From: Campylobacterota bacterium
Lineage (GTDB): Bacteria; Campylobacterota; Campylobacteria; Campylobacterales; Sulfurovaceae
Assembly (NCBI GenBank): GCA_013153345.1
Contig: JAADEQ010000059.1
Location: forward strand, 1-15,244
DNA: 15,244 nt
Direction: 5' to 3'
This document shows, one piece after another, positions 10,023 to 12,577 of the stretch (positions within the stretch are counted from its first letter, which is position 1; each line of letters begins with the position of its first letter). The notes under the pieces are model-generated. The model was not told where the DNA came from, ran no database searches, and saw only the letters and a program-made list of their open reading frames with translations. The position numbers and the translations under genes are program-made.

Positions 10023-10547
10023 ATGTTTTTATATAAAAAAGATATTATTAAAAGTAGAGCTTTTCCTTTTACAAGAGAGGGTGAATGCAAAAATAGTATT
10101 GCTCTAATTGGAATAGGGGGAAATGTTGGGGATAGTAAAAGAAGGTTTATAAAGCTTTTAGTAAAGCTAAGAAGAGATAAATTGCTAAAAGTATTATCAA
10201 CCTCTATTATTTTTAAAAATCCTCCCTTTGGTTATTTGGAGCAAGATGACTTTTATAATAGTGTAATATTGGTCTCTACTTCACTTTCTCCTTTTGAGCT
10301 ATTAAGATATCTTCAAAGAGTAGAGAGATATTTTAGAAGAAAAAGGGAGTTTAAAAACTCCCCTAGAACATTAGATTTAGATATTATATTTTATAATAAG
10401 CAAAGAATAGATAAGAGAAATTTAAAGATTCCTCATTATGATTGGCAAAATAGAAAGAGCGTATTAATACCTATTAAATATCTAAAAGGAAAGAGATGCT
10501 TAAAGAGAGTTTTATCGCCCCAACACCTGAAGAGGCTTATAAGTTAG
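10023..10547 (+). CDS. folK: 2-amino-4-hydroxy-6-hydroxymethyldihydropteridine pyrophosphokinase (HPPK)
   Basis: HPPK transfers pyrophosphate from ATP to 6-hydroxymethyl-7,8-dihydropterin in folate synthesis. In the 174 residues, GIGGNVGDSKRRF (31-43) matches the opening G-x-N-x-G loop, FKNPPFGYLEQDDFYN the pterin-binding segment, and PRTLDLDIIFYN carries the Mg-binding aspartate pair; PHYDWQNRKSVLIP is the C-terminal signature. About 25 basic residues precede the core (MFLYKKDIIKSRAFPF...), an extension also present in Helicobacter FolK. The start is three bases after the peptidase stop; AGGA lies too close for a normal ribosome binding site, so coupling is likely. The last 52 bases overlap flhF in another frame. 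Confidence 0.92.
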   Translation: MFLYKKDIIKSRAFPFTREGECKNSIALIGIGGNVGDSKRRFIKLLVKLRRDKLLKVLSTSIIFKNPPFGYLEQDDFYNSVILVSTSLSPFELLRYLQRVERYFRRKREFKNSPRTLDLDIIFYNKQRIDKRNLKIPHYDWQNRKSVLIPIKYLKGKRCLKRVLSPQHLKRLIS

Positions 10548-11554
10548 CTATAAAAAAGTATGGCTCTATTGATAATTTTAAGGTGGTAGCAGCAAGGCAA
10601 TATATGAAAGATAATGAGTTTGTTAGTGAGATTACTATTGAGGTTGATGAGAACTCTTACTATGCAAGTATTGGGGTTGATGAAGAGGATGCATTAATTA
10701 ATGAGATAAATATCTTAAAAGAGAAGATGGCAAGGATGAAGAGCACTCTTACCACCCCAAAAGATACTCAAGTAATAGAGGCAGTAAAAGAGGTATTAGT
10801 GGATAGAGGATTGCAAGATAGGTGGGTTAGTAATATGTTAGACCCATTTGTTGGGACTCAAGTTGCGCAAGATAAGGATTTGTTACTATCTTTTATATTA
10901 GAGGAGATAGAGGAGGCTTTGGTAATCTCTAAATATCCTATTGATAAAAAACGAGTCCTTTTTGTTGGGCCAACTGGGGTTGGAAAGAGTACGACTATTG
11001 CTAAGATAGCTGGATTTAGCATGCAAAGAGGGATAAAAGCAAATGATATTGCCTTTCTTAATTTAGATACCTTTAAGGCTGGAGCTTATGAGCAGTTAGA
11101 TTTTTATGCTAAAAGGATGAATATTGCTCATTATCATCCAACTAACTTAAAAGAGTTAAAGTTTTATTTGGAGACTTTGCGCGATAAGAAGCTTATATTA
11201 ATAGATACAACAGGTAGCTCTCCATATGACTTTGAGAAGATTTTTAATACGATTGAGTTTTCAAATGATATTAAAGATGTAAGCTCTTATTTGGTGGTCT
11301 CTACTACTTCTAAATATGAAGATTTAATGGAGAGTTATAATAACTTCTCTTTTTTGAATTTAAAGAGTGTGATTATTACCAAGGTGGATGAGACAAAGAC
11401 AATAGGAAATATTATTGCTTTTTTAATTGATACTAAATTGCCTCTATCTTTTATTACCACTGGCCAAGAGGTGCCAAGAGATTTGGAGATTGCTACTAAA
11501 AGAAAGATTTTAGATATGTTTATAGGAGAGATTGAAAATAGTAAAGAGGAGTAG
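10496..11554 (+). CDS. flhF: Flagellar biosynthesis SRP-family GTPase FlhF
   Basis: FlhF is an SRP-type GTPase that sets the position and number of polar flagella. The 352 residues comprise an N-terminal B region (1-100), the N helices (about 105-148) and the G domain: GPTGVGKST (158-166), LDTFKAGAYEQL (190-201), DTTG (237-240), TKVDE (295-299) and TTGQEVP (321-327). DTFKAGA replaces the commoner DTYRIGA. It is about the size of Bacillus FlhF and clearly shorter than Campylobacter FlhF, mainly through a short B region. ATG 10496 has AAAGGA five bases upstream but lies 52 bases inside folK. FlhG, its usual partner and next neighbour in Campylobacter and Helicobacter, is replaced here by mnmA. 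Confidence 0.95.
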   Translation: MLKESFIAPTPEEAYKLAIKKYGSIDNFKVVAARQYMKDNEFVSEITIEVDENSYYASIGVDEEDALINEINILKEKMARMKSTLTTPKDTQVIEAVKEVLVDRGLQDRWVSNMLDPFVGTQVAQDKDLLLSFILEEIEEALVISKYPIDKKRVLFVGPTGVGKSTTIAKIAGFSMQRGIKANDIAFLNLDTFKAGAYEQLDFYAKRMNIAHYHPTNLKELKFYLETLRDKKLILIDTTGSSPYDFEKIFNTIEFSNDIKDVSSYLVVSTTSKYEDLMESYNNFSFLNLKSVIITKVDETKTIGNIIAFLIDTKLPLSFITTGQEVPRDLEIATKRKILDMFIGEIENSKEE

Positions 11555-11557
11555 AAC

Positions 11558-12577
11558 ATCAAAAAGGTATTAATAGGTCTAAGTGGAGGAGTGGACTCAA
11601 CAGTTAGTGCGGTGTTGTTAAAAGAGATGGGTTATGAGGTTGAGGGTGTATATATGATAATGCATAACCTTGAGCATATTCACCACTTTAATATTAAAAA
11701 AGCCAAGAAGGTAGCTGATTATTTGGGAATAAAGCTCCATATAGAAGATATTCAGCAAAACTTTCAAGATGAGGTATATAACTATTTTGTTAACTCCTAT
11801 AAAAAGGGTCTGACTCCAAATCCTTGTGTTGTTTGTAATAGGGAGATAAAGTTTGGGGAGATGGTAAGATTTGCTGATTCGTTAGGAATTGAGTATATTG
11901 CTACTGGACACTATGCTAGAGTAAAAGATGGCTTTTTTTATAAAGGTAGAGATAAAAATAAGGACCAGAGCTACTTTTTAGCTAGGGTTAAAAAAGATAT
12001 AGTAGATAAAGTGATTTTTCCTTTGGGAGATTGGCTAAAAGAGGATGTTAAGGAGTATGCTAAAAATATAGAGGTGTTAAGGGAGTTTGCAACACAAAGT
12101 GAGAGTAGTGAAATATGTTTTGTGGAAAATAGCTATATTGATATTTTAAAAGAGCACTTTAATCCCAATAGACCGGGTCCAATAAAGAATAGTAGGGGTA
12201 AGATTATAGGCAAACATAAAGGGTATATGCACTATACAATTGGTAAGAGAAGAGGGCTTTTTATTAGAGGAGCTCAAGAGCCCCACTATGTAGTAGATAT
12301 TAATGCTAAGACCAATACCTTAATTGTTGGAAAAAAAGAGGATTTGGCAAAAGATTTAGTTAGAATTAAAAATATTAATCTCTTTGAGCCAAAGAGTAGT
12401 TTTGAGGCTGAAGTTAAGGTTAGATATAGAACTAAAGGGGTAAAGGGGAGAGTTACTATTATAGATGATAAAGGGGTAATAGAGCTTAAAGAGCCGGTTT
12501 ATGGAGTGGCTAGAGGCCAGTTTGCAGTATTTTATGATGGTGAGAAGCTGTTGGGAGGAGGGGAGATTGTTGGGTAG
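11558..12577 (+). CDS. mnmA: tRNA-specific 2-thiouridylase MnmA, apparent ATC start
   Basis: MnmA thiolates U34 of tRNA-Lys, -Glu and -Gln using sulfur relayed to its catalytic cysteine. Translation from 11558 gives 339 residues: (M)KKVLIGLSGGVDS with the PP-loop at 9-14, NPCVVCNREIKFG with the nucleophile Cys93, ATGHYAR, and SSEICFV with the second catalytic Cys187. The frame runs back from SGGVDS to a TAG at 11552-11554, which is also the flhF stop, and contains no ATG, GTG or TTG before the PP-loop. A GTG at 11591 would fall inside SGGVDS and remove the ATP site. ATC at 11558 sits six bases after GAGGAG (11546-11551), exactly where the family methionine belongs, so I place the start there. 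A sequencing error or stop read-through from flhF are alternatives. Confidence 0.9.
   Translation: MKKVLIGLSGGVDSTVSAVLLKEMGYEVEGVYMIMHNLEHIHHFNIKKAKKVADYLGIKLHIEDIQQNFQDEVYNYFVNSYKKGLTPNPCVVCNREIKFGEMVRFADSLGIEYIATGHYARVKDGFFYKGRDKNKDQSYFLARVKKDIVDKVIFPLGDWLKEDVKEYAKNIEVLREFATQSESSEICFVENSYIDILKEHFNPNRPGPIKNSRGKIIGKHKGYMHYTIGKRRGLFIRGAQEPHYVVDINAKTNTLIVGKKEDLAKDLVRIKNINLFEPKSSFEAEVKVRYRTKGVKGRVTIIDDKGVIELKEPVYGVARGQFAVFYDGEKLLGGGEIVG

Follow-up and report, generated by a model that had tools for sequence, protein, structure and literature searches.

Among bacterial genes that begin with neither ATG, GTG nor TTG, Escherichia coli pcnB is reportedly initiated at AUU. According to two studies, infC, the gene for initiation factor IF3, starts with AUU in E. 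coli, with ATC in Streptomyces and with AUA in Staphylococcus aureus (PMC5472188, PMC13009471). One of them describes AUU and AUA starts of S. aureus that lie behind extended Shine-Dalgarno (SD) sequences and attain about 10% of the AUG level in poor medium, and an expression of ccpN that responded to the medium (PMC13009471). In the same study, start mapping and reporters assign an AUA start to ccpN of S. aureus and Bacillus subtilis and an AUU start to the staphylococcal cvfC1 gene (PMC13009471). The Streptomyces sigR gene, according to the other study, is translated from a GTC that is repressed by IF3 (PMC5472188).

The ATC that we propose here as the start codon of mnmA, the gene for the tRNA 2-thiouridine synthase, appears to be a start of the infC, pcnB and ccpN kind, present on genes for which no such report was found: titles and abstracts of the open literature searched contain no mention of AUN starts of mnmA or recO, which is weak evidence of absence. 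In comparison with infC, the AUN start and the failure of canonical annotation are common to both cases. The genes concerned are different, being here mnmA, recO and a ThiE-like gene, whereas the earliest canonical codon of infC in Campylobacterales is TTG in each of the 20 loci read (L214-L233), a weak but canonical codon, so that an IF3 loop of the infC type acting at AUN is not visible. The likeness to pcnB lies in a weak AUN start on a housekeeping RNA-processing gene, although the gene and the bacterial group are others and the present case is known from sequence alone. The ccpN and cvfC1 genes share with ours the recurrence of non-canonical starts behind strong SDs across species, but were established by start mapping and reporters and not, as here, by comparison only. 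The sigR gene likewise has a non-canonical start that is misannotated in public genomes, with GTC in place of AUN and a stress regulator in place of an enzyme.

The window, that is, the whole stretch of 15,244 nucleotides analysed (contig JAADEQ010000059.1), comes from a draft genome of 161 contigs and 82.55% completeness, in which mnmA is present in a single copy. It belongs to the Sulfurovaceae, which we take to be marine bacteria related to Sulfurovum; the family includes Sulfurovum and Nitratifractor. The features of the junction are collected in Table 1, where genomes are designated by G numbers.

Table 1. Features around the beginning of mnmA, in window positions
Feature	Position	Strand	Remarks
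flhF-like gene, stop TAG 11552-11554 between SD and ATC	10496..11554	+	ORF list; TIGR03499 122 bits, cut-off 174
mnmA Shine-Dalgarno GAGGAG	11546..11551	+	6 bases before ATC; anti-SD duplex -8.5 kcal/mol
mnmA candidate start codon ATC	11558..11560	+	sole start-like codon from TAG 11552-11554 to first conserved residue; AUN at equivalent place in G004, G007, G008, G011
remainder of mnmA (tRNA 2-thiouridine synthase), incl. stop TAG	11561..12577	+	NCBIfam equivalogs above cut-off
GTG, earliest canonical codon of mnmA frame	11591..11593	+	inside PP-loop, unusable as start; P0121 begins here

The preliminary description of this DNA had placed the beginning of mnmA at an ATC six bases behind GAGGAG, at the position of the family's start, in the frame of an flhF gene whose stop lies immediately upstream, and had stated that no ATG, GTG or TTG precedes the PP-loop. 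The window sequence bears out each of these points, and relatives start at the equivalent place. GAGGAG is directly followed by the flhF stop, by a single AAC (11555-11557) and by the ATC, and the codons from 11561 onwards (AAA AAG GTA TTA ATA GGT CTA AGT GGA GGA GTG GAC TCA) read KKVLIGLSGGVDS. In the mnmA frame no ATG, GTG or TTG lies between the flhF stop and the GTG at 11591, a codon within the SGGVDS motif. Translated from 11561, the frame yields an MnmA protein with its N-terminal PP-loop SGGVDS (NCBIfam PRK00143.1, 385 bits against a cut-off of 284; trmU, 360 bits against 237), the profile matches beginning at residue 1-2 and covering residues 1-336. MnmA has its full N-terminus only on condition that translation begins before the PP-loop. 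The mechanical ORF and the database prediction for this gene (P0121, 328 aa, first residues VDSTVSAV) both begin at the GTG and hence lack the PP-loop. With this arrangement, the ATC at 11558 is very probably the true start codon of mnmA. The protein encoded by the upstream flhF-like gene is a divergent member, with a score below the NCBIfam FlhF cut-off.

Comparison of the flhF-mnmA junction across relatives, as the preliminary description had suggested, reveals that this start is recurrent in the window's genus without being conserved. The survey comprised 72 distinct mnmA loci, each at least 45% identical, after 7 duplicate contigs had been dropped and a second, partial mnmA of G003 (L211; ATG) left out. 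From the upstream stop to the start region, 67 of the 72 contain a canonical codon and five do not. These five all belong to the window's genus, in which they account for 5 of 12 genomes, versus none of the 60 loci outside it. All 12 genomes of the genus have an mnmA, whose start is ATC in the window and G004, ATT in G007, ATA in G008 and G011, ATG in G001, G002, G005 and G010, and GTG in G003, G006 and G009; the five AUN genes carry GAGGAG, AAGGA or AAGGAG at 5-6 bases upstream. An ATG in close relatives had been named as evidence against the ATC, and it does occur in four of the 12, with GTG in three more, but AUN in four genomes besides the window makes the mnmA start variable rather than refuted. 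Protein predictions display a similar pattern. In the best 62 of 120 listed MnmA proteins (2791 found), each at least 65% identical, SGGVDS is preceded by eight residues in 35 and by nine or eighteen in 7, and the other 20, P0121 among them, are predicted to start no earlier than the end of the first strand (11 at MSGG, 3 four residues before MSGG and 6 later). Such late predictions are the expected outcome of gene callers faced with a start other than ATG, GTG or TTG; contig ends may explain some of them.

A comparable start habit is found in recO. A family-wide search detected a recO match in 151 of 175 genomes. The genes were aligned at their invariant N-terminus, x-K-G-F-(I/V) or close variants of this motif. 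In a first sample, AUN or CUG stands at this start in 10 of the 22 genomes read from the family and in none of the 9 read from other families; three more genomes outside the family had a recO match but no locus and are not among these nine. The codons are ATT in the window's genome and G032, ATA in G006, ATC in G012, G013, G016, G017 and G022, and CTG in G002 and G011. A second sample consisted of the 30 loci most like the G032 protein, all from a single genus (g3), with ATC in 23, ATT in one (G032 again) and ATG in six. Both samples joined, AUN or CUG stands at the invariant recO start in 33 of 51 distinct family genomes, a figure weighted towards g3. Five of the 24 g3 AUN genes have a canonical codon in frame 4-32 codons before this start, which leaves 28 strict cases among the 33. 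In the downstream direction, the AUN/CUG genes examined reach their next canonical codon after 7-77 codons. The third base of the ATC is kept in 23 of the 24 g3 AUN genes, which puts this codon among the 7 most constant of 96 codons at invariant residues, where the commonest codon has a median share of 0.67; codon 5 (ATA) is equally constant (23/24), so that the beginning of the gene may be under some other constraint. In G032, a complete genome that matches Sulfurovum lithotrophicum, recO has AUU at this position; the NCBI annotation of the S. lithotrophicum RecO (P0001, beginning MSVRK) starts inside the gene and counts against this AUU. Annotation loses the PP-loop of MnmA in P0121 and, in genes whose next canonical codon lies 7-77 codons downstream, part of RecO, and further genes may be shortened likewise.

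The third gene is ThiE-like (TMP-TENI by Pfam) and has a match in 9 of the 12 genomes of the genus, the window's own genome being without one. Seventeen of 24 loci were examined, nine in the genus and eight outside. The nine start with ATA (7), ATC (1) or TTG (1), and the earliest canonical codon of the eight AUA/AUC genes is found at open-frame residues 33-186, G009 having none before residue 186. Outside the genus several of the eight loci have an ATG near the start, and in G014 no canonical codon occurs before residue 26 of the frame. Three housekeeping-type genes in one family, together with the nearly constant AUC of recO in one genus, could make selection for start weakness accessible to comparative work and to study in cultured species. 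In G011, recO (L121:4369, - strand) and the ThiE-like gene (L121:5995, + strand) are divergent, lie about 1.6 kb apart and both have non-canonical starts; an accD-like and a phosphatase-like gene, identified by reading and not by search, separate them. The stop of the gene upstream of the G011 ThiE-like gene lies one base before its ATA.

At the genome level, the ortholog-aligned starts of 166 ORFs from five genomes included nine in which no canonical codon lies 3 codons or less from the expected start, three of them mnmA (window, G004, G011). Judged by eye, five of the other six do contain a canonical codon, either upstream or farther downstream, so that it is the reference start that is doubtful, and one is DnaJ-like, leaving mnmA as the only gene of this set clearly devoid of a canonical start. 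Since the reference ORFs had been given internal starts, recO and the ThiE-like gene escaped this test, which hence sets no tight bound on the frequency of such genes. A looser test returned 8 of 345 ORFs in five genomes, two of them mnmA; in the other six the alignment was weak or displaced. An SD scan, run on six genomes and agreeing in tendency with these tests, recovered mnmA (G011, G004), recO (G011, G032) and the ThiE-like gene (G011) among mostly unconvincing codons, placed the window's mnmA at the wrong codon and missed the recO of G013. In a wider homology scan the three genes ranked high, and 76 further ORFs were mostly taken for over-long upstream frames.

The SD of the window's mnmA is strong and properly spaced, and the five AUN mnmA genes have SD-anti-SD energies of -5.6 to -8.5 kcal/mol (median -7.7). 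AUN recO genes range from -3.8 to -9.6 kcal/mol, mostly -5.7 to -9.6, and AUN ThiE-like genes only from -5.0 to -5.9; genome medians are -4.8 kcal/mol in G011, the genus member sampled (201 genes), and -4.6 in G032 (268 genes). A stronger, compensating SD as the trait that separates AUN genes from their ATG orthologs was considered but is not borne out by these values. ATG/GTG mnmA genes (-2.9 to -8.8 kcal/mol) overlap the AUN range, the AUN mnmA group is not clearly stronger, and five of six ATG recO genes have -8.3 kcal/mol; given this overlap, compensation is not proven.

These data are best explained by a model in which near-cognate starts, AUN and sometimes CUG, are probably used by a small recurring set of genes comprising mnmA, recO and the ThiE-like gene. 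The SD six bases upstream would set the ATC at 11558 in the P site and so allow the ordinary initiator fMet-tRNA to read it, and initiation with fMet at the other AUN starts plausibly follows the same course. A start of this weakness would impose translational attenuation, little protein being made per mRNA, and the protein level would follow the strictness with which IF3 rejects near-cognate codons. By analogy with the S. aureus and Streptomyces cases, MnmA, RecO and the ThiE-like protein would be scarce and IF3-sensitive. We give attenuation with IF3 dependence at these starts an even chance; in mnmA it is not conserved in the genus, as seven of the 12 members have ATG or GTG. A more doubtful, and on balance unlikely, extension is that mnmA, recO, the TMP-TENI gene and probably more form a weak-start regulon whose products increase jointly when IF3 becomes less active or initiation less faithful. 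If true, it would tie recombination repair, tRNA modification and cofactor metabolism to the supply of ribosomes.

The strongest alternative is that AUN starts have no regulatory role and arose by drift in proteins of low demand, a good SD making a weak start enough. The lability of the mnmA start in the genus, where ATG, GTG, ATC, ATA and ATT are scattered over a poorly resolved tree, speaks for it, as does the variation of recO and ThiE-like starts; the deep nodes of the genus in the MnmA plus RecO tree have support of 20-64. On the other hand, the recO ATC is retained within one genus across species that differ at synonymous sites, AUA or AUC begins eight of nine ThiE-like genes, and mnmA is the sole clear case among the aligned ORFs, in an insensitive test that missed the two other genes. 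Neutral drift, the probability of which falls a little short of even, is a serious rival for mnmA but a weaker one for recO, where the AUC hardly varies.

A dedicated initiator tRNA or a relaxed initiation factor that turned AUN into an ordinary start throughout the family would account for the use of several AUN codons by several genes, but it is quite improbable. The IF3 C-terminal domain scores above its cut-off in 34 of 37 genomes searched (the exceptions being the window's genome, with a fragment below the cut-off, and two genomes of 80-82% completeness without a match), and no tRNA with an unusual anticodon was seen in 60 loci scanned, which cover part of each genome. Moreover, in the portions of six genomes that were sampled, most other genes have canonical starts, which also led us to reject a genome-wide change of the code. 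An assembly or sequencing error, with C for G at 11560, would suit a single-copy gene in a draft genome. The preliminary description had nevertheless favoured a genuine non-canonical ATC, and this reading is supported by AUN at the equivalent place in four further species, by shortened MnmA predictions in other collections and by the same habit in the ThiE-like gene and in recO, the latter in complete or near-complete genomes. Two other genes with this start habit are more than a single base error can explain, and such recurrence across species and genes makes an error very unlikely. Read-through of the flhF TAG into an FlhF-MnmA fusion, which had also been raised and would make a separate start needless, is barely credible: a shared frame with six bases from the stop to the first aligned MnmA residue occurs in the window and G007 only, whereas in the other 9 of the 11 genus genomes with flhF (G008 excluded) this gap measures 13 to 613 bases (613 in G004 and 87 in G011, both AUN), the mnmA frame is interrupted by a TAA 11, 5 and 10 codons before the first aligned residue in G004, G011 and G008, and recO and the ThiE-like gene share the start habit without requiring such a junction. 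Termination-reinitiation coupling was likewise discarded as a common cause; an upstream stop falls inside the SD-start spacer of mnmA in the window and in G007, and just before the ThiE-like start in G011, but all three recO loci viewed show this gene divergent from its neighbour, and the mnmA genes of G004 and G011 do not lie close to flhF.

Some further genes were encountered along with these. The DnaJ-like gene of G004 (L187, reverse complement, base 718) has its expected start near an ATT that follows GGAGG; a TTG is present five codons upstream. In G003, a folK-like ORF (L211, reverse complement, 108-608) contains no ATG, GTG or TTG before codon 95; L211 is the second mnmA-bearing contig of that genome, resembles another genus and may be contamination. 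Outside the family, a signal-peptide-like protein of G042 (L260, reverse complement, base 446) has an apparent ATT start behind AAGGAG. Finally, a lipoprotein-like gene of G009 (L225, reverse complement, base 852) appears to start at an ATA behind AGAGGAGG, its ortholog in G001 (L220) starting at ATG.
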